Shown here one piece after another: positions 17,930-39,232 of a DNA stretch of 52,111 nt. Source of the DNA: Cryomorphaceae bacterium. GTDB taxonomy: Bacteria > Bacteroidota > Bacteroidia > Flavobacteriales > Schleiferiaceae. Each line of letters starts with the position of its first letter. Positions within the stretch are counted from its first letter, which is position 1. A model generated the notes under the pieces. That model was not told the DNA's origin, made no database searches, and worked only from the letters and a program-made list of their open reading frames with translations. The DNA lies in assembly GCA_020832345.1 (NCBI GenBank), contig JAFIEY010000232.1, positions 1 to 52,111 on the forward strand. The letters are read 5' to 3'. A program made the translations under genes and the position numbers.

Positions 17930-20221
17930 ATGAACGAACCGACAGAGAAAAAACCGCGATTTATTAGGGTTCACCAATTGTGGATATTTTTTGCCACCTT
18001 TTTCCCCGTTCGTCTATTTGTCCTCCACCTAAGAAGGAGCATTCTGATGTTATTGCTCTGGTTATTTTTGTTCTTCGCAATTTCCGAAACGCTTTTCACA
18101 GATTATGGCGTTCACTTGCTTTTTCTCATTCCGGAATATCGCGGGGAAACTAATTTCATGAGTTTCTTCCTCACGGGGTTGGGCTTGGGTTTATTTACCA
18201 TGGCCTTTCATGTTTCAAGTTATATTTTTTACAGTTACCGCTACAGTTTTTTGGCTACCCTCGATCGCCCCATTTACCGTTTTAGCATCAACAACAGCTT
18301 GATTCCCGGTGTATTTATCTTGTATTTCTGTCGCAAGCTATACCTTTTCCACGGTCAACTCGATTACACAATACTGGATAGGTTAATTCTAATTTCGGGC
18401 TTACTCTTTGGTGTGTTTTTTATGATCGCCTTTGTGTTTACCTACTTCTTCACCCTCAATCGCAGTAAAAATGTTTTTGAGGACAAGCCCATTAAGTCCG
18501 TCAATAAATTTCTGCAAAACTTATATAGCAAGCGAAATGACATTGACATTCTGACCACCACCGACCTTCGGGTTCACACCTACTTAAAGAACTTCCACCG
18601 ATTGCGGGCCACACGAACGGCGGATCACTACGAATTTAGCAAGCTCATAAATGCTTTGGAGCAGCACCACCTTAGGGCCGCGTATTTCTTTCTGGCGCTG
18701 ATTATACTGCTTGTTGGTTTGGGAACTTTTGAAGAATACGATTGGGTCCAAATCCCCGCTGTTTCCACCCTGCTCATTTTGCTTTCCGTACTCATCATGA
18801 TTTCCGGTGCATTTTTCTCACGGTTTAAGGGTTGGACAACCACCGCTGCCATCGCGACAATTATCATCATCAATTACCTTTCGGCTTTACCACCTTTTTA
18901 CAAACCCAATCAGGCCACTGGATTAGACTACGACACAACTCCAGCGGAATTTTCTCGTGATATTCTATACCGGAATACCACCGATAGTATCGTGCAAAAT
19001 GACCGCGAACATTGGATTCAAATCCTGGAGAATTGGAAAGCTCGACAAAAATCATCCAAACCCAAACTGGTCATTTACAATGTAAGCGGCGGAGGCATTC
19101 GGTCTTCCATTTGGACATATACCATTTTGGACAAACTGGACAGCATTTACGGCGGCGCATTACATCATAATGCGTTTCTCATTACCGGTTCCTCGGGCGG
19201 CATGTTAGGCGCATCATATTTTCGTGAAATTAAATACCGAAAACAAACCGCCGATTGGCCGGAAAACGCACCAAAAGATAAAGATGTATTAGCCCGTGAA
19301 TTGAGTGCCGACATGCTCAACCCAACCGTTTTTAACTTCCTGGTAAACGATTTATTTTTCCGTTTCCGAAAACATGAATATGGCAATCGTCTGTATTACA
19401 AGGACAGAGGTGTAGCCCTCGACCAAGCTTTTAACCGCAACACCTTTGGCATGTTGGACAAAACCTTAGGCGATTATAGCGCCCCGGAATTTACCGCCAA
19501 TATGCCCATCATGATTTTTGCGCCCATCATGATTCAAGACGGAAGACGTATGGTAATTTCAGCACAGCCCACCTCATTTCTCACCTTTACCCGGAATCAA
19601 CAATCCATTTTGGAAGAAAAGGTTTTTGACGGACTTGAATTCTCCAGAATTTTTGAAAATCAAGATGCGATGAACTTGTCCTTCCTCACCGCAAACAGAA
19701 TAAGTGCTTCCTTTCCCTATATCACCCCACTTGTTAATTTGCCCAGCAAGCCGGATATTGCACTGATTGATGCCGGGGTACGCGACAATGACGGATTCGA
19801 AATTGGGATGCGGATGGTACACGAATTAAATGACTGGATAAAAGAAAACACCTCCGGCGTAGTTTTCATTAGGATAAAAGCCGATAAATCGGAGGATGAA
19901 CCACTGTTGACAAATGAATTATCGAGAGACCGTTTGGCCCATCTTCTTCGTCCGGTTGGCGGATTGTTTGCGAGTTTTGCCCATTTACAAGTATTCAACA
20001 AGTCACTGATTCGGCAATTTGGTGAAGCCGCGATAGACGTGCCTATTGAAGTCATAAATTTCCCCCTATTTCGTCCTGGGGAAGAAGAAAATCTTTCGCT
20101 GAGCTGGCGATTAACCGAAATTGAACAAGAGCAACTTCGGGGCGCCCTGTTGCGTCCGGAAAACCGACACGCTATCGAACGAGTTCAGAAAATCATCAAT
20201 ACGCGAAGTGAGGTGAAATAA
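17930..20221 (+). CDS. Membrane-anchored patatin-like phospholipase
   Basis: A 763-residue protein with two parts. The first 325 residues contain about seven hydrophobic segments (roughly 36-52, 78-98, 122-142, 150-172, 248-268, 275-292 and 305-322). The C-terminal part is a patatin fold: oxyanion motif SGGGIRSS at 386-393, nucleophile motif GSSGG at 420-424 with Ser422 as the likely nucleophile, and catalytic aspartate in DAG at 614-616. The sequence ISASFPYITP at 591-600 matches the family. Such enzymes cut acyl chains from phospholipids. The membrane domain followed by patatin, beside MlaE-MlaF, suggests a role in membrane lipid turnover; this is inference. Which side of the membrane the catalytic part faces is not clear. 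Confidence 0.85.
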   Translation: MNEPTEKKPRFIRVHQLWIFFATFFPVRLFVLHLRRSILMLLLWLFLFFAISETLFTDYGVHLLFLIPEYRGETNFMSFFLTGLGLGLFTMAFHVSSYIFYSYRYSFLATLDRPIYRFSINNSLIPGVFILYFCRKLYLFHGQLDYTILDRLILISGLLFGVFFMIAFVFTYFFTLNRSKNVFEDKPIKSVNKFLQNLYSKRNDIDILTTTDLRVHTYLKNFHRLRATRTADHYEFSKLINALEQHHLRAAYFFLALIILLVGLGTFEEYDWVQIPAVSTLLILLSVLIMISGAFFSRFKGWTTTAAIATIIIINYLSALPPFYKPNQATGLDYDTTPAEFSRDILYRNTTDSIVQNDREHWIQILENWKARQKSSKPKLVIYNVSGGGIRSSIWTYTILDKLDSIYGGALHHNAFLITGSSGGMLGASYFREIKYRKQTADWPENAPKDKDVLARELSADMLNPTVFNFLVNDLFFRFRKHEYGNRLYYKDRGVALDQAFNRNTFGMLDKTLGDYSAPEFTANMPIMIFAPIMIQDGRRMVISAQPTSFLTFTRNQQSILEEKVFDGLEFSRIFENQDAMNLSFLTANRISASFPYITPLVNLPSKPDIALIDAGVRDNDGFEIGMRMVHELNDWIKENTSGVVFIRIKADKSEDEPLLTNELSRDRLAHLLRPVGGLFASFAHLQVFNKSLIRQFGEAAIDVPIEVINFPLFRPGEEENLSLSWRLTEIEQEQLRGALLRPENRHAIERVQKIINTRSEVK

Positions 20222-25476: not shown

Positions 25477-26060
25477 AAACGCTCGTTTTAGCAACCCAAA
25501 ATCCGGGTAAAATTTCCGAGATTCGCGATTTATTACCCGAATCCATTACCGTCGTTTCCTGTAAAGAAGTTGGCATTACCGAAGACATTCCGGAAACAGG
25601 CGACACCCTGGAAGCCAACGCCGAACAAAAAGCCAGGTATATGTTTGATCGTTGTGGGTTGCCTTGCTTGGCCGACGACACTGGCTTGGAAGTAGAAGCA
25701 CTTGACGGCGCACCGGGGGTGTATTCTGCGCGATATGCCGGTCCGGAAAAAGACAGCGAAAAGAATATCGATAAACTGCTTTTAGCGCTTGCCGGAAATG
25801 AAAATCGTCGGGCGCGTTTCCGAACGGTTTTGGCGATGGTGAGTAAATCGGGGACCCAATTTTACGAAGGCATTGTACGCGGAACGATTGCCGAAAAACG
25901 AATGGGCAATTCGGGATTTGGATACGACCCCGTTTTCATTCCCGAAGGTGAAACCCGTAGTTTTGCACAAATGACAAAGGCGGAAAAAAACCAAATCAGT
26001 CACCGGGGCAGAGCTTTACAAAAAGCATTTGGCTCTAATCAAAATCCAGGGTCAATTTAA
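25473..26060 (+). CDS. rdgB: Non-canonical purine NTP pyrophosphatase (RdgB/HAM1 family)
   Basis: A 195-residue enzyme that hydrolyses dITP, ITP and XTP to monophosphates to keep deaminated purines out of DNA. The start LVLATQNPGKISEIRDLL is the family's nucleotide-binding opening. The catalytic-site block is LADDTGLEVEALDGAPGVYSARYAG, and the end has SHRGRALQKA with the conserved histidine and arginine. It overlaps the aspartoacylase-like gene by four bases. It also overlaps the convergent lipoprotein gene (ending 26035) by 26 bases at the 3' end. Confidence 0.95.
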   Translation: MKTLVLATQNPGKISEIRDLLPESITVVSCKEVGITEDIPETGDTLEANAEQKARYMFDRCGLPCLADDTGLEVEALDGAPGVYSARYAGPEKDSEKNIDKLLLALAGNENRRARFRTVLAMVSKSGTQFYEGIVRGTIAEKRMGNSGFGYDPVFIPEGETRSFAQMTKAEKNQISHRGRALQKAFGSNQNPGSI

Positions 26061-27228
26061 AACGCATTACACGACCATTCCCGGCATCCGCGACATAAAC
26101 AATTCTCCGATAATAGGCAACTCCACTGGGCTGGTTAAACTCCATCAATCCGGTTCCTTTTCCACCAAATGACGTCTTTTGCATTTTGGTAATACCGGTG
26201 GCCGGCGGGGGTAAAACACCTTCAAAACCGTCTGGGGTAAACTGAAATAAGCTGTCCTTTTCCGCATCCACCACAAAAAGAAATCGGGTATTATCTCCCG
26301 CGACGGTTAGATTGACTGGCCGAGCAAATTTATTGGGCTCATAGAGAAACCCATCCGCTTTGGAAGTGTCACCTACGGGGAAAATCCGCGGACTGAATTC
26401 AGTTCCAAAATCCGTTTCTGTATATTCAATGTATTGAACGCGCAATTCGTTGGAGGGACTAACACTGCTATAAAAAAAGTGCCTTTGCGTTGATGCTTGT
26501 ATTTGTGGCGGCTGGGCCAAGGTGGCAATGCCAGATGGTTTTTGAAAATAGTCGTTGAAAATTCCGCTACTGGTGTTCACGGAAACCGTGGTTTCAAATT
26601 GATCTGTGTTGGAAAAAATCAATACCGCGTCATTAGGCCCCAAAACGCCAGAGCCTCCCTCCCCCTGTCGGGTAATGTAATAACGATTATTTTGACTGGG
26701 ATTATCACTGGCCATGATGGCGGCTTTTTTAAATCGAACTGTTCTATCGTTGTTGTTCACATTACTTCGAGCGTAAAATGGATGAACGACTTTGTTGTGA
26801 ATTCTCGCATATCGAATACCGTATTGTCCGGAATTATTCATCATTCTAATACGGTAAATGCAAGCGAGCGAAACGGATTGTCCGGCAATAATTGTATCGT
26901 GGGTACCGGTGGCCAACAAATCAAAACGACGATCTTGGGTAACACTAGTTACACCTGGCACGCGAAACCGACCCTGTACGACCCCACTCTCATCAAGACC
27001 AACGATTTCCTCCGTTGCCTCGTCCACTACATAGAGTAATTGATCAAATCCGATACAAATATCGGTGGGGTAAACAAATTGGTCCCACACAGGTTGGATG
27101 GGCACATAGGCAACATCCCGGTTGGTAAATTCCGGTTGGTCGATAAAACTCAAATCTGTTTTATCGCCAAAATATGCTGTACAGGAACTCAGCATGGCTA
27201 TGATGATAATGAAAAGATTGCGCATCAT
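26035..27228 (-). CDS. NHL-repeat lipoprotein, last gene of the surface cluster
   Basis: From the ATG at 27228 the protein has 397 residues. It starts MMRNLFIIIIAMLSSC, a lipoprotein signal with Cys16 as the anchor. The rest shows a six-bladed-propeller pattern: QPSGVAYYRRIVYVADAGNGRVMRF near the end is a clean NHL repeat, and DICIGFDQLLYVVDEATEEIVGLD is another near the start. The frame extends upstream to 27375 over the PorV-like gene, but that part has no signal peptide. The start overlaps the PorV-like stop by four bases. It is probably a surface or periplasmic binding protein; the partner is unknown. Confidence 0.85.
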   Translation of the reverse strand: MMRNLFIIIIAMLSSCTAYFGDKTDLSFIDQPEFTNRDVAYVPIQPVWDQFVYPTDICIGFDQLLYVVDEATEEIVGLDESGVVQGRFRVPGVTSVTQDRRFDLLATGTHDTIIAGQSVSLACIYRIRMMNNSGQYGIRYARIHNKVVHPFYARSNVNNNDRTVRFKKAAIMASDNPSQNNRYYITRQGEGGSGVLGPNDAVLIFSNTDQFETTVSVNTSSGIFNDYFQKPSGIATLAQPPQIQASTQRHFFYSSVSPSNELRVQYIEYTETDFGTEFSPRIFPVGDTSKADGFLYEPNKFARPVNLTVAGDNTRFLFVVDAEKDSLFQFTPDGFEGVLPPPATGITKMQKTSFGGKGTGLMEFNQPSGVAYYRRIVYVADAGNGRVMRFKLTLDFD

Positions 27229-28241
27229 GATTTCTTTTTTCCGGTATTTAGTAATAAAAATCGCAACCCAATTAAATGTTGCATTCCCACAAAATCCGTG
27301 GGATTCGCACCGTAATCGATATACATGGTGTTTTCGCCGAGGGCGGCTTTTACCCCAAAACCAAATGTCGGCCATTGTTGCCCGTCCACACTGATCTTGT
27401 ATCCCAGTCGAAGGAAATACACATCGGAATAGTCATATTCCCCACCGAGTCGGATATTTTCCGCATTATCATTTGGATGGTTGATTTGAAATGCAGCGTG
27501 AATGCTGTGCTGCCCATTCTTGTATGCTCTAGCAGATGCGCCAAGACTAAAAAGAATGGGAAGAGTGTTGTCGTCCAGTGCAATTCCCGGCGTTCTATTA
27601 AAATCCACCGGAAGCCTGTCTCTGGAAGAAAGCGCTGAATTTCCACTGAAATTGGAAACAACAACGGCAAATTGCAGGTCTCTCCAATCGGTTTGGTACA
27701 AAAACGACAGATCGACAGCTGCGGTATGGGCGGTAAATTCTGCAATATTTTCGTAAATATATTTTAGGGATAACCCCGCACTGAATTGATCGCTGAGTTT
27801 TCGCGCATAAGTCAAACCAAAAGCCATATTCACTACACTAAACTCCCTGCCTGTGCCCTGCGGCATAAATTCCGTTCGCTCTTTAATGGATCCACTATTC
27901 AATCCATTGATAGAAAATCCGATAACATCATTTCTTTTGGCATTGGGGAAAGCGCCACCCACAAAGCTTTGGTTGACGCCTGCACCCACAAACATATTTT
28001 GCATGCTAAAAGAATTGTGGCGAAGTTGCGTAAGCGCCGCGGGGTTGGTAAATAGAGAATAGACGTCGCCGGAATTAGCCGCACTTGCACCCCCCATTCC
28101 CAAAGATCTGGGATTGATGTCATTTTTTAAAAACGTGAGGGCGGACAAACCGGCACGCTCACCGCCGTAATTTGGCAAGACTTGTGCATTGAGCATGCCT
28201 TGCAAAAAAACCGTCAATATGATTGTGTATCTTCTCATCAA
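27225..28241 (-). CDS. PorV/PorQ-family outer-membrane protein
   Basis: A 338-residue beta-barrel. The signal peptide is about 1-19 (MMRRYTIILTVFLQGMLNA before Q). The conserved PorV/PorQ (UPF0164) opening is INPRSLGMGGASAANSGDV, followed by YSLFTNPAALTQL. In T9SS, PorV acts at the attachment complex that delivers secreted proteins to the surface. Here the gene sits beside a T9SS-sorted protein, a receptor and lipoproteins, so it may be a cluster-specific variant instead of the core PorV. It overlaps its neighbours on both sides by four bases. Confidence 0.88.
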   Translation of the reverse strand: MMRRYTIILTVFLQGMLNAQVLPNYGGERAGLSALTFLKNDINPRSLGMGGASAANSGDVYSLFTNPAALTQLRHNSFSMQNMFVGAGVNQSFVGGAFPNAKRNDVIGFSINGLNSGSIKERTEFMPQGTGREFSVVNMAFGLTYARKLSDQFSAGLSLKYIYENIAEFTAHTAAVDLSFLYQTDWRDLQFAVVVSNFSGNSALSSRDRLPVDFNRTPGIALDDNTLPILFSLGASARAYKNGQHSIHAAFQINHPNDNAENIRLGGEYDYSDVYFLRLGYKISVDGQQWPTFGFGVKAALGENTMYIDYGANPTDFVGMQHLIGLRFLLLNTGKKKS

Positions 28242-31078
28242 AATCTAAATGCTATGCCAAATAAAACTTGCCTAGGGGCCAAATAACGAGCGGGGTTTCG
28301 GGGATCCAGACCGGATTCTTGCGGGCCGTTGTACTCCGGACGGGGATCGCGCCAGGTAAGCGGCACATCATCTCCGTACTCGTAAGCTCTTCCAGTTACC
28401 GGGTTAATTATTTGCGCGTTGAGGTGATTAAACATATTTCGTATTTCAGCACTAAAAACCAGTCCTCGCTTACCACTGAGCATCCAGTCATAACTCAGCT
28501 TTAGATCAAAGTTGATCCACGGTGTTGCAATGCCTTCTAAAAAACGGTCGTTACGCACTTCAAATTCCGGGCGTCCCAAATCGTTTTCTGAAACTTGTAC
28601 CTGCGGCGTATATCGGAATCCGGAGGTGTAGCGATAGGAGAAAAAGGCCCGGAATCCGGTGAGATTAATTCCCAGTGCCCTAAAGGTGCTATCCGGCGTA
28701 AAGATCACACCGGCATTGATATTCCATGGGCGGTCAAATGCCAGATACTGTTCCCGCGAAAGTTGAATTTCACCCGTTTGGGCAATTTGCAACGCCGATT
28801 CCCTGGCACTGTTAGATTTTCCACGGGCCAATTGATATGCGGCATTTCCGAAGGCATTCAGGTATTTCATGAACCGGTATTGAAATCCGAATTCTACCCC
28901 CATTATCTTCGCATAATCCTGGTTGATGTAAACGGTTTTGGTTACCGGCCTACCTGTATTGTCGGTTACAATGGCCGTCCGGGAAACGATATAGTCAAAA
29001 CGGTTGTTGTTGAATGCCGTGAGGGAAATGGCCAGATTCTTATTGACCATGCTTTTTAGTCCAACTTCATAACTAACATTGACCTCTGGATCCAGGTCGG
29101 GATTTCCCAAACTTGAGAGAAACGAGCGATCTTGAAAAACCGGATCAAGGCCGGCATATAAAAACCTCGGATGAGGCAATCGCATGCTATGGCCGTAATT
29201 AAAATACATCACATTATTTTCCGTGATGGGGAAAGAAACATTGATTCGGGGTAATAATCGGGCTTTCCATCTCAACCCCATTAAATCCACCGTTTTGTTT
29301 TCATAATCAATACGACTTTGATTTAAAACGGGAGAATTGGGATCCGCCACGGCTTCATCCGCAAACCGACCTGGCGCCCAGTAATTCAGTCGCGCACCAA
29401 GTGTTGCAATGATTCCCTTATAGCTTATCCTATCCTCTACAAACAAACCACCATTTTGGGGTCGCACTTTCCATATATCACTTGAGGAACCGATGGAAAC
29501 CGAGGGTGTCGTGGTTGAATCATCAATTCGGATGGGGGCGCCTACCCAGGGGCGGGTAACATCAGCCCATTGGTATTCCGTGAAAACATGGCTAAAACCA
29601 AAACTCACGCGGTTTACCCCATCACCCGGATCATAGGTTATTTTGCCGCGAAGGGTGTATTCTTGAGCATAGTGATCGTGCCAAAGGGAAGAAATACCGC
29701 CATTATTTACCAGCCCGTCGCCCGGCAAAACGAAGAAGGTTCCACTGGGATCTCCTGGGTTAAATATCCCCACCGGGTGCGTTATGATATTTGCTTCATC
29801 ATAAATTTGATCTACTGTTTCCGTGCGAAAAGGCCGACCGTTGGCATCTGCACGCAAATTGGTAAACAAGCGCCCAAGACTCAAAGATGCTCCCCACTTT
29901 TTATTGATCATGTGACGAACATTGATGGCTGTGAGTACCGAACGATGGGTGTAGGTGGTGGCGTTGTCTAAATTATTACTTCTGGCGTATTGAAATCCGG
30001 GCGCCAAAATGGCATCAAAACCTACGATTTGCAGGGTTCTGGTATTTTGATTGATATTGACACTTGCCTGGTTGGTCAGGGTAATTTTAGTGCCCGGTCG
30101 AACTTGATAAGCCGCTTTAAATGTGTGGGTAAATACATTGGAATACCGTGGGGCAAACAAATTTGGATTTCTGGGAAAAAGAGAGGAATTCAATTGATCC
30201 GCCGTGGCACCAAAATATTCATCGGTTATCATACCGGTGAAGTTGTTAAATACCGTCAGTTTTTTTTTGGTTCCCGGAATGGGCGTCCCGATGGTTAATT
30301 CTATGATATCCGTGTTAAAACTGGTGGCCAAATTCGGGTTGTTAAAAAAGTCTCGCTGCCAGCTTCCGGACATTTCGAATTTGTCACCGGCTTCGCGAAT
30401 GGTGGTATTGACTACACCCGAAGAACCCCCACCAAACTCAGCACCGGCACCACCGGTAGTTAAACTCATAGATCCGATGGAAGAGGAAGCTAAATTGACA
30501 CCAAAACCGGTACCTGCCAATGGATCCTGCGCACTGATGCCATCCACCAAATATTCCGTTTCATATACCCTGGCTCCCCGTATTTGAAGGCCGTCGGGGG
30601 TTTCGATTACCCCGGCCTGCATGGCAACAACTTCCTGCACGTCACGACTGTTCATTTCCGCCAATTCTTGTCGGGTAATCGTCACCTCAGAAGCTGCCAA
30701 CTCCAAATCAATCTGCGACTTTCGACCCACCACCTCAACTTCACCCAAACCGGAAACTTCAGAAGATAATTTTATATCCAAAACCGTAGGCTCACCGGCT
30801 TTGATTTCGATATCGTTATATTGCCGTGTACCATACCCGAGATATTGTACTTTCACAGAATAGGCACCGGGTTTTATATCGCTAATGGCGTAAAAACCGG
30901 CTACATTTGAAGAGGCGCCTTTGTACGTACCTACTAGCGCAACCGATGCGCCAACCAGAAGTTCTCCCGTGTCTTCATCTACAATAACGCCCTGAAGTTT
31001 GCCCGTATTCTGTGCAAAAATCAATTGGGTGAAGCAAATCATCAGCCCGGTAAAAAACCACTTACCAATCGAAGTCAT
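28238..31078 (-). CDS. TonB-dependent receptor with N-terminal carboxypeptidase-regulatory-like domain
   Basis: From the ATG at 31078 the protein has 946 residues. It has a signal peptide (MTSIGKWFFTGLMICFTQLIFA before Q). A CarboxypepD_reg-like domain follows, starting GKLQGVIVDEDTGELLVGAS. The plug domain is next, with EVVAMQAGVIETPDGLQIRG and VNLASSSIGSMSLTTGGAGAE. The barrel covers the last 700 residues and ends RQVLFGIAFRF, a typical final aromatic strand. This is the energy-dependent importer of the cluster. The frame runs on to 31168, but that part overlaps the upstream lipoprotein gene and adds nothing. No SusD-type gene is adjacent, so it is not a standard SusCD pair. The substrate is unknown. 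Confidence 0.93.
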   Translation of the reverse strand: MTSIGKWFFTGLMICFTQLIFAQNTGKLQGVIVDEDTGELLVGASVALVGTYKGASSNVAGFYAISDIKPGAYSVKVQYLGYGTRQYNDIEIKAGEPTVLDIKLSSEVSGLGEVEVVGRKSQIDLELAASEVTITRQELAEMNSRDVQEVVAMQAGVIETPDGLQIRGARVYETEYLVDGISAQDPLAGTGFGVNLASSSIGSMSLTTGGAGAEFGGGSSGVVNTTIREAGDKFEMSGSWQRDFFNNPNLATSFNTDIIELTIGTPIPGTKKKLTVFNNFTGMITDEYFGATADQLNSSLFPRNPNLFAPRYSNVFTHTFKAAYQVRPGTKITLTNQASVNINQNTRTLQIVGFDAILAPGFQYARSNNLDNATTYTHRSVLTAINVRHMINKKWGASLSLGRLFTNLRADANGRPFRTETVDQIYDEANIITHPVGIFNPGDPSGTFFVLPGDGLVNNGGISSLWHDHYAQEYTLRGKITYDPGDGVNRVSFGFSHVFTEYQWADVTRPWVGAPIRIDDSTTTPSVSIGSSSDIWKVRPQNGGLFVEDRISYKGIIATLGARLNYWAPGRFADEAVADPNSPVLNQSRIDYENKTVDLMGLRWKARLLPRINVSFPITENNVMYFNYGHSMRLPHPRFLYAGLDPVFQDRSFLSSLGNPDLDPEVNVSYEVGLKSMVNKNLAISLTAFNNNRFDYIVSRTAIVTDNTGRPVTKTVYINQDYAKIMGVEFGFQYRFMKYLNAFGNAAYQLARGKSNSARESALQIAQTGEIQLSREQYLAFDRPWNINAGVIFTPDSTFRALGINLTGFRAFFSYRYTSGFRYTPQVQVSENDLGRPEFEVRNDRFLEGIATPWINFDLKLSYDWMLSGKRGLVFSAEIRNMFNHLNAQIINPVTGRAYEYGDDVPLTWRDPRPEYNGPQESGLDPRNPARYLAPRQVLFGIAFRF

Positions 31079-32489
31079 CCTGAATGATTTTATCAAATAA
31101 ATCTTGAAGCGAAGTTGGATTTGTAATAAAACGATGTAAACTGGTGGCGAAAAAAACCTGCTGAACATTATTGTTTCGTCTGCGCAATGCGGCTATCAAA
31201 TTATCACCCTGCCAGTTATTTATTGGCGTCAGTTGTGCGCGGTAAAAATCCTCGGAATCCAGTGACCGAACCAGAGGAACGATTCCCGTTAGGGTTCCAT
31301 CCGGGGAAACAGGTGGGTAACCGCTTAAAACCGGAATCAGGGAACTATCGGCGGTAAGTCTCGCTTGGCCCCCACTGACCACCACGCCTTCTATGGGGAA
31401 CCCAATGCCCAGACTTTGAAAATCAGAAGACGATGTAAGTATGGTCGTCACAAATGATTTTCCATTGTTGCTATTAAATTCGGCAATTAGTGGAGATAAA
31501 TTCACCAAAATGGTTGCGGACTGTCCGGTAGCCGAATTGGTAAAGGAGGCGATATCGGTATAAATAAACAATTTATCATACCGCTTAAGTACCCGTCCAA
31601 AATTAGCTGCCCAAAATTTGGGTTGGTATTTTCCCTGGTCACGGTAAAAATCGATAAAATCGCAATCGTTATTAAATGCATTTTTCGCGTAAGGGGTAAT
31701 AACATTTCGCACCGACATAGGCTGACCACAAATAATCAGGTTGTCGGAATTTTGCTGTTTAAAGTAAAAAGCATTTGAAGTATCTACATCACTTTCTGCG
31801 CCTGCAATGTCAATGGCTTTTATATATACGACGTTTTCGGCATTGACCCGAACATCCGATGCCATTTGGGAAATAGGATTATTTTCTGTAGCAGAAAATA
31901 TTTGTGCCTGACCACTTCCTGAGGTAGAATTGGGATCGAGCATAAAGGTGATAACGTTGGCCGAAGGAATAGGAAACCAATCGCCGTCATTAAATTTCAT
32001 CAAAACCTGGCTAATGGTTTCATCTCCATCGAGATCAGTTGCCCGCCACCGGAAAGTGGCCGCCACAAGCGCTGTATCTTCCGGCCCTACTTCATTGTCG
32101 AAGGAAGCAACCGGTGGTGTATTGCGAAGCGGAATGCGCAGGTATGCAGGATCAGGGTCTTTTGCGCCTTCATTGTCGATGGCCCGCACCCAAAAATCCT
32201 GATCCATGGTATCCGAACCGGCATCAATTGAAAACCGGAATGTACTATCGTTTTTGGTGGTGTTAAACCAATTTTCCCGATCAAAGGAAAATTCAAAACC
32301 CACCACATAGCCATCTTTGTCGGTTCCAAACCAACTCAGTCGCACATTGGAATTAAGCCTGTTTTCGCCTACCCGATTGATACTTTCCAGAGAGATAAAC
32401 GTATTGGGCGGCAAGTTTTCATTTTTGTCGCCACGCATACATCCCCAAATCGCGGATAGAATCAGAAATATGATAATATAGTTTCGCAT
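31062..32489 (-). CDS. Surface lipoprotein with fibronectin-like domains
   Basis: A 475-residue lipoprotein. The signal MRNYIIIFLILSAIWGC ends in Cys17. The next 200 residues read like two Ig or fibronectin-type domains (LSWFGTDKDGYVVGFEFSFD, FWVRAIDNEGAKDPDPA, FRWRATDLDGDETISQVLMKF). The last 230 residues look like an alpha/beta domain (NLIICGQPMSVRNVITPY, VLKRYDKLFIYTD), which I cannot name. It overlaps the receptor gene by 17 bases. By position it could serve the receptor as a surface partner, as SusD does elsewhere; this is inference. Confidence 0.82.
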   Translation of the reverse strand: MRNYIIIFLILSAIWGCMRGDKNENLPPNTFISLESINRVGENRLNSNVRLSWFGTDKDGYVVGFEFSFDRENWFNTTKNDSTFRFSIDAGSDTMDQDFWVRAIDNEGAKDPDPAYLRIPLRNTPPVASFDNEVGPEDTALVAATFRWRATDLDGDETISQVLMKFNDGDWFPIPSANVITFMLDPNSTSGSGQAQIFSATENNPISQMASDVRVNAENVVYIKAIDIAGAESDVDTSNAFYFKQQNSDNLIICGQPMSVRNVITPYAKNAFNNDCDFIDFYRDQGKYQPKFWAANFGRVLKRYDKLFIYTDIASFTNSATGQSATILVNLSPLIAEFNSNNGKSFVTTILTSSSDFQSLGIGFPIEGVVVSGGQARLTADSSLIPVLSGYPPVSPDGTLTGIVPLVRSLDSEDFYRAQLTPINNWQGDNLIAALRRRNNNVQQVFFATSLHRFITNPTSLQDLFDKIIQDDFDW

Positions 32490-32533
32490 GAAAAAAATAG
32501 GAGGACGCCATAATGACGTCCTCCAATATTCAT

Positions 32534-34771
32534 TTAACGTTGAACCAAAACTTTAGCTGTTTTCACGACAACACCTGAACGGGTATCTATCACGCGCATC
32601 ACGTACATACCATCGGGCAGGGTATTAGCATCCACCTGAGTTTCTGTGCCAAAACGAGATTCAGCTTTGCGAACCATTCTTCCGTTTAGGTCAAATAGTT
32701 GAACTGAAAAATCACGGATTTCTGAAACCTCCACGGTAAAGAATGCACTGGTAGGATTGGGATAAATAGAAACATTGGCCATGCCTTCAAACGAAGTTAC
32801 ACTGATCGTAGGGCGACAGTCCAGACTATCCAGGGAGAAATTCGGATTAATGAAGTCATCGTTGGCGCGGGGCAAAAGGCGGTATTCGCCAAATCCGTAA
32901 AACCAAATACCTTCAATGGCATCGAATTCCATTCCGCTGTTGGTCAATACCACTGGCACCATCATGGCACCGTTGGACGTAGCCCATGCTGAATCGTTTA
33001 CGACACTTACGTAAAGTGAGGAACGGCTGTTACCATCGCGTCCGGCGAGAACAATGGTAGATTCGTTAAGTCCATTGGCCGTGTCGGTTGAGATTAGATA
33101 ATCACCAAAATTACCACGACGAGGATCAGAAATAACCACTTTTCCATTGGGGTTTTCCATGCGCAATACCATGCTTTCGTATTTTTCAATTTCACCTGAA
33201 GCATACATAGAAGGCATATTGGGGTTTAGGGTTACCGGAGTAACTGTGCCACTATTTCCAGTAGTCGTAATGTTGGTCACATTGATTTGGGTAAACCCAA
33301 AGTTTTCTTCAACCGTACCGGTAACTGTAACTTCTTGTTCGCGGAATAGATTCGCCAAGTCGGGAGATCCAAGTAGGGCAACTCCAGCCCACTCATTAAA
33401 ATTCGGGTCTTGGATATAAACGAAACCCAAATCGCAAACCTTGGTTGAGGCGGTTACCACTCCGGTTACAGTTACTTGCTGACCTTCATAAGGAGAACCG
33501 CCAAAAGTTGGATTAAATTGCACATCAGGAATCACCATTCCATTGTCGCGAACCACGTAAAAATACGTGTTTTTGGGCGCAACATTAAATGGGGCGGTCG
33601 TGACATTATTGTCATTATCGATGGCTTCGATATAATAACGCACCATGGTATTATTGGGAAAAGCGGGAATTACAGCGCTGTATTCATCTGTGGTGCCGGG
33701 AATTAAAAGGGGCGTTACATTGCTATAGGTAGAAAGGGCAGCTGAAGTATCGTCAGAATAATAAAGCTCCAAATCCGTAATGGTTCCATCGAGATCATAG
33801 GCGGTAAAGGTTACTTCAACCGTTTGTGATGCATTTGGCACCTGCGGCGTTCGGATGACATTCTCAACAAACGGGGGAGATGCACCGAGGTCATAGTGTG
33901 TAGAATCGAAAGGGTTCAGTTCGTAACCCCTTCCATTTCCTCCGGTACAACCGTTTCCGGAATGCAAAACAATACCGCGAATGGAATTGTAAAAAGCGCC
34001 TACTGTGGGCGGCGTAAAAGTTCCGTTTCCGGGACCGCCGTTGGAAGTTGCATAGGGAGAATTCGGATTAACCGGGGTATGGTTACTCATCTTCTGCGCA
34101 ATAAAGCGGTCGGAAACATTGATGCGATTTCCATTGGCATCAACCACATCGAAGCTGACCCGACTACCACCGGCAAAAATATCAACATTGACAACAGTCA
34201 CATTTTGAATTTCCACAAACGCTCCTTCCCATTGTTCTCCGGAAGGCAATTGATTTACGCGGTTGTTGTCATTCAAATCACCGACATTTACCAAAGCCGG
34301 TTGGGGTGGAGTTTGTGTACCACTCAATAACGACAAGGAGTTAAAATCAATGATTTCCAATTGATTGTTTCTTGCAAACATATTGACTACACCAATAACC
34401 TCCACGATATCTCCGGCCACAACCTGAGTAGCCACGGGATGGGCAACCATTGCAGTACCCGTAGAATATGAACAAAGCACTTCAATGCCCTTAAATGGCT
34501 CTGCGGTAGTACCGGTTGCCGTATCGGCGATATACATAAACGGACGAAGTCCTCCCTGCACACTACCGGAAGCAACCTCAACCAGGCCACCATCTACCAT
34601 TACAACACCAACGGTTCTTACGGTATCTCCGTGGTATTGGGAAGTATCATTACAGTTGGCCAAATCAGAAGCACTCACAAATTGAATATCGTGAATACTA
34701 ACGGTTGGCGGCGTTTGAGCAAAAAGCCCAAGGGTTGCCATTACAACAATGGCGGAAAAAAATGTTCTCAT
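32534..34771 (-). CDS. T9SS type A-sorted secreted protein
   Basis: A 745-residue secreted protein. It has a signal peptide (MRTFFSAIVVMATLGLFA before Q). Repeated OB-fold-like segments follow (VGVVMVDGGLVEVASG, VTVTGVVTASTKVCDLGFVY, VTVTGTVEENFGFTQINV), with an Ig-like part in between (VEVTFTAYDLDGTITDLELYYSD). The last 75 residues are a clear T9SS type A sorting domain: SIYPNPTSAFFTVEVSE, then VQLFDLNGRMV, DGMYVMRV and VKTAKVLVQR. It should therefore be exported through T9SS and fixed to the surface or released. The N-terminal domains are of the type seen in nuclease-linked Bacteroidota secreted proteins, but no nuclease domain is visible. Confidence 0.92.
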   Translation of the reverse strand: MRTFFSAIVVMATLGLFAQTPPTVSIHDIQFVSASDLANCNDTSQYHGDTVRTVGVVMVDGGLVEVASGSVQGGLRPFMYIADTATGTTAEPFKGIEVLCSYSTGTAMVAHPVATQVVAGDIVEVIGVVNMFARNNQLEIIDFNSLSLLSGTQTPPQPALVNVGDLNDNNRVNQLPSGEQWEGAFVEIQNVTVVNVDIFAGGSRVSFDVVDANGNRINVSDRFIAQKMSNHTPVNPNSPYATSNGGPGNGTFTPPTVGAFYNSIRGIVLHSGNGCTGGNGRGYELNPFDSTHYDLGASPPFVENVIRTPQVPNASQTVEVTFTAYDLDGTITDLELYYSDDTSAALSTYSNVTPLLIPGTTDEYSAVIPAFPNNTMVRYYIEAIDNDNNVTTAPFNVAPKNTYFYVVRDNGMVIPDVQFNPTFGGSPYEGQQVTVTGVVTASTKVCDLGFVYIQDPNFNEWAGVALLGSPDLANLFREQEVTVTGTVEENFGFTQINVTNITTTGNSGTVTPVTLNPNMPSMYASGEIEKYESMVLRMENPNGKVVISDPRRGNFGDYLISTDTANGLNESTIVLAGRDGNSRSSLYVSVVNDSAWATSNGAMMVPVVLTNSGMEFDAIEGIWFYGFGEYRLLPRANDDFINPNFSLDSLDCRPTISVTSFEGMANVSIYPNPTSAFFTVEVSEIRDFSVQLFDLNGRMVRKAESRFGTETQVDANTLPDGMYVMRVIDTRSGVVVKTAKVLVQR

Positions 34772-34812
34772 GAGAAATTCAAAATTTAAAATTAGTGAAA
34801 AACAAAAACTGA

Positions 34813-37038
34813 TTATTTAATTATTGCAAAAGTCCCCGATTTTGATACACCGGTATCGAGGTCGTACACCGTAAACAAATACATCCCACGTGCAATGATT
34901 TGTGTGCTTTTACTCAACAAGTCCCAGGCACGTTCTCCCCCGGAAAAAACATTCTGCTCGGGGTTTTCCGCGCCAAATGTTCTAAACCAGCGAATGTCCT
35001 GACCGTCGTATTGTTCGTCGTGTTCTATTTCATCGATTAAATCACCTGCTGGGGTAAAGATTTTTATTCGGCAGCGGCGGGGCAGATTGGCAAAAATGAT
35101 TTTCCTACTTTCCTCCTGAAAATTACTCCGTCCTTCCCAGGCGGCACCGTAGTAATAGGGATTCGGGTAAACATAAGGTGCGTTATCCTCAATCGCATCA
35201 TTTGGGGCCGTTCCGGCAAATGCGCGAAACTGATTGGACAATGGTGCGGATTCCAGGGATTCCAAATTGATCTCTTCATTTCCCCTGTCGAATGCTGTAA
35301 CGGAAACCGCGTGTTGCCAGCCGTTTGGCAGATTATCTATGGTGTATTTAAACCAGTATTGATTCGTGTCATTGGGGAACATTTTTGGCTCGTCGAGTAA
35401 GATTGACTCAAAACCCGTCTCGTTAAAATAGCCGTTATCGGGGATGTCAAATTCGGCAATTTTCACCAAATTAGAAGCGACATCCGGGGTACCGGTTACA
35501 TCAAAACCGAGTGGCGTCATATACACCCGAAAGCCCTCAAAATCCATTTCTTGTGAGATGGGGTCAACGGAGTAGAAGGAATTATCACTCCAAAAAATAT
35601 CTATTTTATTTTCCGAGGTCAAAACTCGGGTAATGGGTCTATCCGGCGGAGCAGGAAGAATAAAGCGGGTAATTTTACCACTTCCATCCTGATCTTCTCC
35701 CGGATCTAAAACGCCATTAAAATTCACATCCTCTCCGTTGTAAGCGGTTTGCACCCAGTTTGCATTATCGATAAGGTTTTGTCTTTGCACCAAATTATTT
35801 TCTGAATTGGGGTTTCCATCGTCATTTTTTGGAGCAATGATATATGCAAAAGTCACGGTTATCTCATCCCCCGGCGTGAAGTCTCGGTAGGGACCAGCGG
35901 AGACAATATCCGATCTGTTTCCGGGTGCGTTGAGCATATTTTGCAAATCCACCCCAAAGGATTGTTGGCAATCTGCAGAATTTGGGTTGGTCCAACAGGG
36001 ATGATCATTCATTCCGTTGGCCATTTTTTGATAACGTTGCTCGTCGTTTGAAGGAAAAAAGAAAATGGGATTGGAGCTGTTGTTAAATTGCCATGACTGA
36101 TAATTGGCCATGAAGTTTTCGCGTACCCAGCGTTCTTGTATTTGATTATAAGTACTATCGAGCTGTGGATGGTGAAATCCAAACTTATCTTCAGATCCCA
36201 AAAATTTCTGGCCGATATAACTATCCGTAAACCCAACATCCCCGGTGGCGTCAAAACAATAGGCCAGTCTCAAAGAATCCATGTAGCCATTTCCACCCTG
36301 ACTAAAAAAGGTTGCGCCACCTGCACCGGCGGGCGTGATGTTGATGTTTCTGACCACCGTGTTGTTCCACAAGCCAACAAACACACTGTCATAGGTGCTG
36401 TTTCCGATATTTTTCAAAGTCATGTTGACCACCACAAAGAAATCGCTAAATGAATAGTTCCAATTATACGTTTCCATGGTAACCTGCACATTCATGGGAA
36501 ACTGATGACCGGCAATGGGTGTATTGGTTCCGGGGACAACTTGACTGGAATCGTTAAACACCGCGACAAAATCTTGATGCGAAACAGCGGCATTGGAAAA
36601 AAATCTGGAATCAAATAAGGAAGAACGTTCCCGAAAAGGCGGCGAACCGGGCGGTATGGTAAATTCAAATCCGGCACGACCCGGCGCATAACCCTGTGGC
36701 GCATCAAATGCCGAAGTACTAACTTCAATGGCGCCACCTCGCGACCTGTTTGCGCCACCAATCCAAATACCACCTTCAAACAAATGCTCAATACCAGAAC
36801 CGGCGGGATACTCACAACTTCTTTGTCCTGTTCCATCGCGATAGCCTCGAAAAGCATTTCCAAATGTTCCGGTATTGGTGACGGTCAGACGAATATTAGA
36901 AGCATTCGTTACCTTTTCTTCAAAAGCCTGGGCATAACCGGAGTTTGCTCCACCAAAAAGCAGCAATACAAAAGCACAAAATCCTAACAATTTGACACTT
37001 AAATCACACCGAAAATCTCTTGACACAAGTCCTCGCAT
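34813..37038 (-). CDS. Large secreted protein with FlgD-like C-terminal domain
   Basis: A 741-residue exported protein and the first gene of the cluster. The signal peptide is about 1-37 (LLGFCAFVLLLFGGANSGYA before Q). The body has GTGQRSCEYPAGSGIEHLFEG and IWIGGANR early on, then a repeated style of FRVYMTPLG and VSVTAFDRGNEEINL. The end (YVYPNPYYYGAAW, then IKIFTPAGDLIDEIEHD, WDLLSKSTQIIARGMYLFTV) has the YPNP-beginning FlgD-ig or T9SS-like pattern, but it is less clear than in the next gene. Domain function unknown. A promoter box lies at 37055-37062. Confidence 0.85.
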   Translation of the reverse strand: MRGLVSRDFRCDLSVKLLGFCAFVLLLFGGANSGYAQAFEEKVTNASNIRLTVTNTGTFGNAFRGYRDGTGQRSCEYPAGSGIEHLFEGGIWIGGANRSRGGAIEVSTSAFDAPQGYAPGRAGFEFTIPPGSPPFRERSSLFDSRFFSNAAVSHQDFVAVFNDSSQVVPGTNTPIAGHQFPMNVQVTMETYNWNYSFSDFFVVVNMTLKNIGNSTYDSVFVGLWNNTVVRNINITPAGAGGATFFSQGGNGYMDSLRLAYCFDATGDVGFTDSYIGQKFLGSEDKFGFHHPQLDSTYNQIQERWVRENFMANYQSWQFNNSSNPIFFFPSNDEQRYQKMANGMNDHPCWTNPNSADCQQSFGVDLQNMLNAPGNRSDIVSAGPYRDFTPGDEITVTFAYIIAPKNDDGNPNSENNLVQRQNLIDNANWVQTAYNGEDVNFNGVLDPGEDQDGSGKITRFILPAPPDRPITRVLTSENKIDIFWSDNSFYSVDPISQEMDFEGFRVYMTPLGFDVTGTPDVASNLVKIAEFDIPDNGYFNETGFESILLDEPKMFPNDTNQYWFKYTIDNLPNGWQHAVSVTAFDRGNEEINLESLESAPLSNQFRAFAGTAPNDAIEDNAPYVYPNPYYYGAAWEGRSNFQEESRKIIFANLPRRCRIKIFTPAGDLIDEIEHDEQYDGQDIRWFRTFGAENPEQNVFSGGERAWDLLSKSTQIIARGMYLFTVYDLDTGVSKSGTFAIIK

Positions 37039-37054: not shown

Positions 37055-37080
37055 CAAAGTTACAAGTTCACCGTCATTCA
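37055..37080 (-). promoter_or_regulatory. Candidate promoter of the six-gene surface cluster
   Basis: TAACTTTG on the minus strand (37062-37055) fits TAnnTTTG and lies 16 bases upstream of the start at 37038. A TTG lies 16 bases further upstream, slightly closer than usual. This would drive the cluster from 37038 down to 26035. Confidence 0.5.
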
Positions 37081-37138
37081 ACGTTACATAATTGTTAAGA
37101 ACATATCACTAAAAAATTGGGATCAAAAATATATGCGA

Positions 37139-39232
37139 TTATTCTGATAATTGCTTTTTAATATAATCATATAAATCATACTGAGCCCTTACCTCGGGCG
37201 AATTATTCTTTCGGTAGCCATTACTTCCACGGGCATCAATATTTCTGGCCTTTACATTATCTGACCATAAAATTTCGAGATGATCAAAAATTTGGGATTT
37301 AATCGACTCATCATAAATGGGTACGGTAATCTCAACCCGGTATTCAATATTTCTCGCCATAATATCCGCAGAGGAAATATACATTTTGGGGTTTCCATTA
37401 TTGTGGAAGGCAAATACCCGACTGTGCTCCAAATACCGATCTACAATACTTATGCATTCAATGTTTTCGCTCAACCCAGGTTTTCCGGGAATCAGCGAAC
37501 AAATACCGCGAATGATCAACCTGATCTTTACCCCTGCTCTACCGGCCTCATAAAGGTGATCGATGATGGCCGTATCACATAAACTATTGAGCTTTAATAT
37601 TATCGAAGCCTCCTTTCCCGCTTTGGCATTTTCAATTTCCGCGTCAATACATTTGGTAATTCCACTTCGAAATGAAAAGGGCGAAATCAATAAATGTTTG
37701 TTTTTAAAAACCTTATAGTTGGCATCGAAAAACGTAAACAATCGAACGATTTCCTTGGTGATTCGCTCATCTGATGTAAACAAGTGATAATCTGTATAAA
37801 TACGGGCCGTTTTTTCATTAAAATTACCCGTACCGGCGGAAACGTAGTTTTTCAATTTTTTACCTTCCCGGCGACGAATTAAAATAATCTTGCTGTGCAC
37901 CTTGAGTCCGCTCACACCAAAAACAACATTCACCCCTTCTTGCTTGAGTTTTTCCGTCCATCTAATGTTGTTTTCCTCATCAAAACGCGCCTGCAGCTCC
38001 ATGACTACAGTTACCTTTTTGCCATTTTTTGCAGCATTAATTAAGGCGCTAATGATACGTGAGTTTTCCGCGAGGCGGTACAAGGTAATTTTCACCTCTT
38101 CTACTTGCTCATCGAGGGCGGCTTCTCTCAGCAAGCGAATGATATTGGAAAAAGTATGATAGGGTAAAAAAATTAAAATATCTTTTCGGGCAATTACTTC
38201 GAGTAAGGACTGTTCGAGATTTAAATCGGGATGCGGCAAGGGCGGCATCGGTTTATACGTCAATTCCGGATGACCAGCAGACGGGAAATCGATTAAATCC
38301 TTTTTGTTGTGATAACGGCCACCGGCAATAATAGAATCAAAATTATCCAAATCAAGTCGGGAAATCAACATATCAATGACGTCTCCGGGGATTTTTGCAT
38401 CGTACACAAACCGAACAGGATCGCCCGTTCGCCGATCGCGCAGGCTGCTGACCATTTTATCTAAAAAGCTTTTGGACACATCACTTTCAATATCCAACTC
38501 TGCATCCCGGGTAAATTTAATGGTATGTGCCGTAACACCATCGAAACCGTGAATAAAGAAAATATACCGCAAATTATAACGGATAAGATCATCGAGATAC
38601 ATAATGGTTCGCTTACCGCGACCGGGCATTTCAATAAAGCGCCCCACCAATTCGGAGGGAATTTCGATAAGTGCGAGCAAGGGTTTTTTCTCCCGATCTC
38701 TATACGACAGTTTGATGGACAAATATATAGACTTGTCTCGCAAATGGGGGAAAGGTCGATCCTCGGATAGTAAAATGGTAAAAACCGAAGGACTTACTTT
38801 TTCGATAAAATATTTTCGTGCAAAATCCTTCTGATTGGGTGTCAATCTTTTTTCATCAATAATCCGAATCCCTTCACCTTCGAGTGATTCAGTCAATCGG
38901 TCATAAATATTTTGTGCATCTGCCTGTTGTTGTTTTACAATTTCGGTCAATCTATTGAGCAATTCGGTGGGGTGTACATCTCCAAGTTCTCTACCTCCTC
39001 TTTTGGACAATTGCCCCATTCGCTTAATGGTTGCGTATCGAACCTTAAAAAACTCGTCGAGGTTATTGGAGAAAATTCCTATAAAACGAATACGCTCAAT
39101 TAACGGAACGCGTTCGTCCATTGCCTCTTGTAAAACTCGGGCATTAAAGTGCAACCAACTTATATCGCGTGGTAAATACACATCGCTTGTCAGAAACACT
39201 TTTTTTCGCTTATACTTCTGCTTATGCATCAA
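37139..39232 (-). CDS. ppk1: Polyphosphate kinase 1
   Basis: A 697-residue enzyme that builds polyphosphate from ATP. The N-terminal domain starts LPRDISWLHFNARVLQEA, the family opening. The histidine that is phosphorylated during catalysis is probably H446 in KVHSKIILI. The motif MELQARFDEENNIRW at about 411-425 and SAGTGNFNEKTARIYTDYHLF at about 465-486 are conserved. The length is normal. It overlaps the SixA-like gene upstream by four bases, so the two are co-translated. The partner exopolyphosphatase gene is about 33 kb away at 4044. Confidence 0.96.
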   Translation of the reverse strand: MMHKQKYKRKKVFLTSDVYLPRDISWLHFNARVLQEAMDERVPLIERIRFIGIFSNNLDEFFKVRYATIKRMGQLSKRGGRELGDVHPTELLNRLTEIVKQQQADAQNIYDRLTESLEGEGIRIIDEKRLTPNQKDFARKYFIEKVSPSVFTILLSEDRPFPHLRDKSIYLSIKLSYRDREKKPLLALIEIPSELVGRFIEMPGRGKRTIMYLDDLIRYNLRYIFFIHGFDGVTAHTIKFTRDAELDIESDVSKSFLDKMVSSLRDRRTGDPVRFVYDAKIPGDVIDMLISRLDLDNFDSIIAGGRYHNKKDLIDFPSAGHPELTYKPMPPLPHPDLNLEQSLLEVIARKDILIFLPYHTFSNIIRLLREAALDEQVEEVKITLYRLAENSRIISALINAAKNGKKVTVVMELQARFDEENNIRWTEKLKQEGVNVVFGVSGLKVHSKIILIRRREGKKLKNYVSAGTGNFNEKTARIYTDYHLFTSDERITKEIVRLFTFFDANYKVFKNKHLLISPFSFRSGITKCIDAEIENAKAGKEASIILKLNSLCDTAIIDHLYEAGRAGVKIRLIIRGICSLIPGKPGLSENIECISIVDRYLEHSRVFAFHNNGNPKMYISSADIMARNIEYRVEITVPIYDESIKSQIFDHLEILWSDNVKARNIDARGSNGYRKNNSPEVRAQYDLYDYIKKQLSE

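Follow-up and report, generated by a model that had tools for sequence, protein, structure and literature searches.

Loci of the Bacteroidota that contain a TonB-dependent receptor are often read as glycan systems, and the Sus-type SusC–SusD loci combine such a receptor, with a carboxypeptidase-like N-terminal domain, with surface lipoproteins and, often, a secreted hydrolase encoded in the same row. Also close to the system considered here are the ExeM/NucH nucleases, ExeM requiring both its OB-like and its endonuclease/exonuclease/phosphatase (EEP) part for activity and/or stability (PMC6085458, in part), the NucT/Nuc nucleases of the phospholipase D (PLD) type, and the attachment complex in which PorQ serves as the surface anchor of PorZ (PMC5562754, in part). 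Here we analyze a cluster of six genes, G1 to G6, at positions 26035–37038 of the minus strand of a 52,111-nucleotide stretch of DNA from a Cryomorphaceae bacterium (contig JAFIEY010000232.1 of assembly GCA_020832345.1; the whole stretch is called the window). The order of the six genes is kept in distant Bacteroidota, often beside a gene for a secreted enzyme of the nuclease type, and the cluster thus probably encodes a surface machine by which DNA or RNA of the surroundings is caught, cut and brought into the cell. To this reading, in which extracellular nucleic acid is captured at the surface, cut and taken up in a TonB-dependent manner, we give a probability of about 0.55. Narrow queries of the open-access literature returned no title or abstract beginning that describes the cluster; a 2024 study of sludge reports secreted nucleases of Bacteroidota, and the locus does not figure in the parts of it covered here (PMC11495043).

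The locus resembles the Sus-type loci in the architecture of its receptor, in its surface lipoproteins and in the frequent presence of a secreted hydrolase. Unlike in those loci, however, exported proteins of the type IX secretion system (T9SS) and a PorQ-like barrel take part, the partner enzymes are nuclease-type, the six proteins and the neighbors scanned include no glycan enzyme, and SusD is found neither in the six proteins nor, with SusD-like_3 as the sole SusD model used genome-wide, in the genome. We therefore rejected a polysaccharide locus, as did an earlier note on this DNA, which had noticed the lack of SusD and had proposed a dedicated uptake or surface-assembly machine that uses the T9SS and has a PorV-like member of its own; the conservation of the gene order and the distribution of the T9SS, described below, bear this out. 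As for ExeM/NucH, its OB-like part is matched by G2 and its EEP part by the enzyme next to the cluster in one of the other loci gathered, L043, but here the two parts reside on separate chains, both with a T9SS tail, and the scores are far under the curated cut-off; in sequence, G2 and the EEP enzyme look as if ExeM had been split over two chains. The PLD enzymes found beside the cluster share with NucT/Nuc the HKD catalytic motifs with GSxN, but have two HKD domains in a single chain of 750–1090 residues, an OB-like N-terminus and a T9SS tail, and the spacing between the D and GSxN is about twice the (x)6 of the NucT signature (PMC5714352, in part). Finally, G5 is nearest PorQ and the C-terminus of G1 weakly nearest that of PorZ; in contrast to PorQ–PorZ, the genes lie beside one for a TonB-dependent receptor, the PorQ and PorZ cut-offs are not reached, and anchoring is proposed.

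Of 114 loci with G1, 100 have the exact order G1–G6 (19/19 in the family of the window, f1, and 81/95 outside it), a count that leaves out genomes with possibly only G2–G6, because the phylum loci were picked for carrying G1. These loci belong to 25 families of one phylum, and the median gaps from G1 to G6 are 17, 57, −4, 2 and −4 bases. Besides the window, the sample comprised 115 loci: 20 came from the family, in which 23 further genomes have G3 (genomes G002, G008 and G010, and a second, partial copy in G003, were left out), and 95 from the phylum sample, which has 109 further strong G1 carriers (14 left out). Of these 95, 86 reach G6; L034, on a contig without G1, was dropped. Strong carriers were defined by a G1 match with E ≤ 1e-50, and the synteny profiles were rebuilt on the gathered loci. 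In a sample of 395 genomes of the phylum, G1 was found in 147 at E ≤ 1e-10 and in 110, the window's included, at E ≤ 1e-50. In a set of 40 genomes made up of the window's and its near relatives, G3 is present in 24, that is, in 24/25 genomes of f1 and 0/15 of the other families of the order; the exception in f1, the single-contig genome G006, has no G3, G1 or long PLD and, among the matches listed, no EEP-domain match beyond T9SS tails. As judged from this distribution, the G1–G6 order is ancient, and the earlier note, which had described the same cluster, was right and understated the case: the arrangement is more than chance. Conservation of the gene order in other genomes, which that note had suggested examining and whose failure would have spoken against its proposal, is strong.

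The 14 deviating loci comprise five cut by contig ends, two without G2, one without G3, one without a detectable G6, one with two G2-like genes, one with inserted open reading frames (ORFs) and three with G1–G2 alone. In L115 and L184, both of family f37, the place of G3–G6 after G1–G2 is taken by ORFs some 290 and 550 residues long. In L109 and L171 (family f53), G2 was not recognized and an ORF of 358–364 residues comes right after G6, coding in L109 for a DUF1028 protein with TPR repeats. Genome G003 has, beside a full cluster elsewhere, a second, partial G2–G3 stretch on contig C149 (L027), which may reflect a contig end or a mixture of strains.

All of the strong G1 carriers (110/110) have sprA, the gene for the T9SS translocon, as against 193 of the 285 other genomes. 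A rival explanation of the cluster is surface assembly or adhesion, in which the G5 shuttle would display G1 and G2, the receptor would energize or gate the process, and the nuclease would trim extracellular DNA of the matrix, with no import. That G5 belongs to the PorV/PorQ family, that G3 has fibronectin type III (FnIII)-like domains and that specialized shuttles for particular T9SS cargo exist, as shown for the PorP/SprF type (PMC12618676, in part), all fit this explanation, as does the position of the cluster in two loci, after gldM, gldN and, by Pfam, an EEP gene in L031 and in L033 after gldM and gldN genes 83 and 91% identical to those of L031. If nothing were imported, however, there would be little reason for a TonB-dependent receptor to be conserved in so tight a row of genes, and sprA is common without the cluster (the 193 genomes mentioned), so that we regard surface assembly as unlikely.

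An EEP gene lies directly upstream of G1, in the same direction and with gaps of −13 to +2 bases, in all 13 family loci that allow the test and lie outside the window's genus (the 19 with G1 minus L032, L037 and L038, which begin in or at G1, and minus three of the window's genus); a T9SS tail was recognized, with a profile of our own, on 11 of the 13 proteins. In the 95 loci outside the family, 19 EEP and 13 PLD genes lie directly downstream of G6 (32/95; gaps of −77 to 101) and one further EEP gene lies upstream; in L127, an EEP is followed by a PLD. Of the 32 downstream proteins, 31 carry a T9SS tail, and the remaining one, in L088, is cut by the contig end. Altogether an adjacent EEP or PLD was found in 12 families, and since there are only 2–8 EEP genes per genome in the 15 genomes examined, the adjacency of the EEP is far above chance. 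Seven EEP columns that we take to be catalytic (N, E, H, D, N, D, H) do not vary in any of the 22 aligned proteins, and the pattern GD[FLM]N plus SDHxP occurs in 25 of 33 adjacent EEPs, seven others having an altered first motif and one being truncated; both HKD motifs, HxK(x)4D followed by GSxN, twice, are present in 16/16 PLDs, which places these in the PLD superfamily. Twelve family loci (L031, L032 and L035–L044) also encode, right after G6, a related protein of about 130–165 residues, which in L043 consists of little beyond a CHU_C T9SS domain (PF13585).

The earlier note had found no enzyme, and this holds for the window; its relatives, however, have a hydrolase next to the cluster, and the genome of the window itself codes for a T9SS-tailed PLD of 756 residues on another contig (L186:6996-9266), which is 32–35% identical to the cluster-adjacent PLDs over most of its length. 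A long PLD, unlinked to the cluster, is present in 5/5 genomes of the window's genus versus 0/20 other genomes of the family, the mirror image of the adjacent EEP. This genus-level switch between EEP and PLD is one evolutionary event, and repeats within the family the exchange seen across the phylum. Other EEP-like proteins of the window's genome (G000) and of G003 score 171–176 bits with the EEP domain profile, compared with 301–518 for the family's cluster neighbors, and have no match to the T9SS tail; they were treated as paralogues, although scores as low as these also occur among the cluster EEPs of other families.

The enzymes also co-occur with the cluster in the 395 genomes, when thresholds of E ≤ 1e-150 for the long PLD and E ≤ 1e-77 for the EEP are used. 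The long PLD is found in 42/110 strong G1 carriers versus 4/285 other genomes, the EEP in 66/110 versus 13/285, and either enzyme in 100/110 versus 17/285, an effect whose size is inflated because the cut-offs were set after the scores were known and the profiles derive from cluster neighbors. Within eight mixed families, considering sprA-positive genomes, either enzyme is present in 65/70 carriers and in 13/48 others (Mantel–Haenszel z 7.2), the species within a family not being independent.

Several of these observations weigh against a nucleic-acid machine, as do the limits just given for the co-occurrence. Neither enzyme is found at the thresholds in 10 of the 110 carriers, including five of family f37, and there is no contrast between carriers and others in families f43 (4/4 versus 4/5) and f44 (9/9 versus 1/1). 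No EEP lies directly upstream of G1 in the window or in the three gathered loci of its genus, and in the window neither an EEP, nor a PLD, nor a type I phosphodiesterase is adjacent; the same three enzymes are missing within 300 bases on the same strand in 48 of the 95 loci outside the family, nine of which never reach G6. In 14 of the 95 loci, all of one family, the neighbor is a type I phosphodiesterase, recognized by Pfam in one and by similarity in the others; confined to a single family and lying within a wider conserved neighborhood, it is weak evidence and was set aside. Three loci, two of them of f37, have G1–G2 without G3–G6, and G1 and G3 themselves yield no clue to the substrate. 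To these may be added that the EEP and PLD superfamilies also hold phospholipases and phosphatases, and that the matches of the partner enzymes and of G2 to nucleases stay below the curated cut-offs.

Those matches nevertheless are what suggests a nucleic-acid substrate. If matches to the T9SS tail are set aside, NucT models rank first or close to first for the three PLDs scanned, with 34 to 55.8 bits against a curated cut-off of 297. G2 (residues 435–643) aligns with positions 1–222, the N-terminal part, of the ExeM/NucH family (NF033681; 47.5 bits), and the EEP of L043 with positions 331–459 (26.2 bits), both under the cut-off of 300; of the five EEPs scanned, L043's is the sole one to match ExeM. 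The N-terminal parts of the PLDs align with positions ~30–118 of ExeM/NucH, and the first ~310 residues of G2 are homologous to the same part of the PLDs (hhalign, 98.5%). The earlier call of OB-like domains in G2 is right, although the Pfam matches on which it could rest are all under cut-off and the matches to ExeM/NucH and to the PLD N-termini are the better support. In L114, a xanthine/uracil permease is encoded downstream of G6. When one PLD was compared with solved structures, entries named "mitochondrial cardiolipin hydrolase" came first (E 7e-15), a point against nucleic acid even if these entries include the nuclease Zucchini; the same search gave the endonuclease 1byr (E 2e-8) and NucT (6ehi, E 2e-4).

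The cardiolipin hydrolase entries would fit another explanation, in which the cluster would scavenge phosphate or other parts from phosphodiesters other than nucleic acids, such as phospholipids or teichoic-type polymers, with the EEP, the PLD and the type I phosphodiesterase as exchangeable surface phosphodiesterases. The three families all cleave phosphoric esters and include lipid-active members, and in the window a polyphosphate kinase gene (37139–39232) lies on the same strand 100 bases upstream of G1, with a similar ORF upstream in L029. That gene is not upstream in L028 or L030, the other two gathered loci of the genus, and a conserved ppk neighborhood is not supported across the loci examined; moreover, the OB-like G2 and the matching N-termini of the PLDs point to nucleic acid, and the nearest named PLD models are nucleases. 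We consider this explanation improbable. For NucT, which is the nearest nuclease with a name, links to purine salvage and also to transformation have been described (PMC5714352, in part), and uptake of DNA could accordingly serve natural transformation and not nutrition. No competence family was found among the few cluster neighbors scanned, a weak argument in that the search for competence genes did not extend to the whole genomes; we hold a role in transformation to be very improbable.

In the capture, cutting and uptake of nucleic acid that we favor, G1, G2 and the partner nuclease would leave the cell through the T9SS, and the OB-like G2, together with G1, would hold the polymer at the surface. 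Because G5 is nearest PorQ and the end of G1 weakly nearest that of PorZ, the G5 barrel may anchor G1 or other cargo via a C-terminal domain, as PorQ does PorZ. The partner enzyme, of the EEP type in most of the family and a NucT-like PLD in the window's genus, would then cut the polymer, and the fragments would enter via the receptor G4, with the surface lipoproteins G3 and G6 possibly standing in for the SusD lid. If true, a conserved locus with nucleic-acid-type enzymes would add a little-tested class of substrate, would explain how surface nucleases of the T9SS are linked to import, and would bear on the recycling of DNA and phosphorus in water and sediment.

The six ORFs, for which we chose likely start codons, are separated by gaps of 41 and 44 bases and then overlap by 17, 4 and 4 bases, and their order, protein types and junctions agree with those first described. 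G1 (34813–37038; 741 residues) is exported and has no Pfam match; at 69%, its mean column identity is the highest of the five proteins aligned for the window's family. Its C-terminus, with a weak match to that of PorZ (E 0.004) and a low-probability alignment to the tail of G2 (3.4%), may be a divergent T9SS sorting domain. The AlphaFold2 model of G1 is poor (pLDDT 67), and Foldseek gave TM-scores (query length) of ~0.1–0.2 to a mixture of FnIII and glycoside-hydrolase/phosphorylase entries; a function could not be firmly derived from the fold. G2 (32534–34771; 745 residues) is exported and carries at its C-terminus, in residues 669–742, a T9SS type A sorting domain (PF18962, 48.3 bits; TIGR04183, 42.7 bits; both over cut-off).

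Both lipoproteins, G3 and G6, have a lipobox-like signal at the N-terminus, as read from the sequence. G3 (31062–32489; 475 residues) matches no Pfam family over cut-off; its model (pLDDT 86.7) has FnIII/immunoglobulin-like domains and a C-terminal domain with a class I glutamine-amidotransferase-like fold. The Foldseek matches are mostly to FnIII domains, the amidotransferase fold appearing in the VIA-align list, with the HisH-like 1kxj as the best match of the C-terminal domain (Z 12.9, root-mean-square deviation 3.3, 180 aligned residues). There is no conserved catalytic Cys, as among 109 sequences the Cys of the lipobox is the sole column with Cys in more than half, and G3 is therefore likely to act in binding rather than in catalysis. 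G4 (28238–31078; 946 residues), the TonB-dependent receptor, has an N-terminal carboxypeptidase-regulatory-like domain, and its plug (PF07715) and beta-barrel (PF00593) are over cut-off. The outer-membrane barrel G5 (27225–28241; 338 residues) is a member of the PorV/PorQ family, reaching 160.7 bits with NF033709 against a cut-off of 90, and is under the equivalog cut-offs, with 89.9 bits for PorQ (NF033711; cut-off 220), its nearest named relative, and 63.1 bits for PorV. In G6 (26035–27228; 397 residues), the NHL repeat is over cut-off and suggests a beta-propeller. When solved structures were searched by profile or sequence, G1, G3 and the EEP yielded T9SS tails or no useful match and G2 mainly T9SS tails, and PHROGs returned zero matches for the four proteins scanned.

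A promoter had been thought likely before the first gene. In agreement, the sequence TAACTTTG at 37062–37055 fits the −7 promoter element of Bacteroidota, whose consensus is TAnnTTTG, and TTG at 37081–37079, although slightly too near, completes a promoter-like element (37055–37081, minus strand). The 44-base gap between G2 and G3 is filled by a strong terminator-like hairpin (32524–32500), overlooked in the earlier note, of 11 pairs, seven of them G–C (−21.5 kcal/mol, z −6.9), with a T-run just before the start codon of G3. Over the whole region, terminator-like sites are at chance (16 versus 13.8 expected); the one between G2 and G3, and its conservation, stand out. By the same test, 48 of the 111 loci, namely the window and 47 of the 110 others, have a hairpin after G2 and 63 do not, while it follows G1 in 0/115, G3 in 1/109, G4 in 2/108, G5 in 1/108 and G6 in 7/107; in a shuffle control, 0.3–0.95 were found on average and three at most. 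The hairpins after G2 span 13 families and differ in sequence.

Since the hairpin separates G1–G2 from G3–G6, one uniform transcript is doubtful, and in this respect the earlier interpretation, otherwise supported in its dedicated, T9SS-dependent surface or uptake machine, stands corrected, as it does with regard to the enzyme. Internal promoters, which would have argued against a single operon, are not evident, sigma-70-type matches being at chance (21 versus 21.8 expected) in a scan that does not cover promoters of the Bacteroidota type. Specific as it is to the position after G2 in many loci, the hairpin is probably an attenuator that sets G1–G2 in excess over G3–G6 in many such operons, and would keep the membrane part less expressed than the exported proteins. 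An excess of this kind would be expected of a system with more exported binding proteins than importers. Tentatively, and at somewhat short of even odds, we propose that the cluster is an undescribed, phylum-wide locus for the utilization of nucleic acids, in which an oligonucleotide-importing receptor would be combined with a T9SS-exported, PorQ-anchored complex of nuclease and OB-domain proteins, the EEP and PLD would be interchangeable, and a conserved attenuator would put the exported proteins in excess over the importer.

Elsewhere in the window, positions 17930–20221 code for a protein of 763 residues, after an OmpA-family gene, with a borderline match, just under cut-off, to patatin-like phospholipases. 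The assembly from which the window comes measures 4.0 Mb, as against 2.3–2.6 Mb for four genomes of the same genus.

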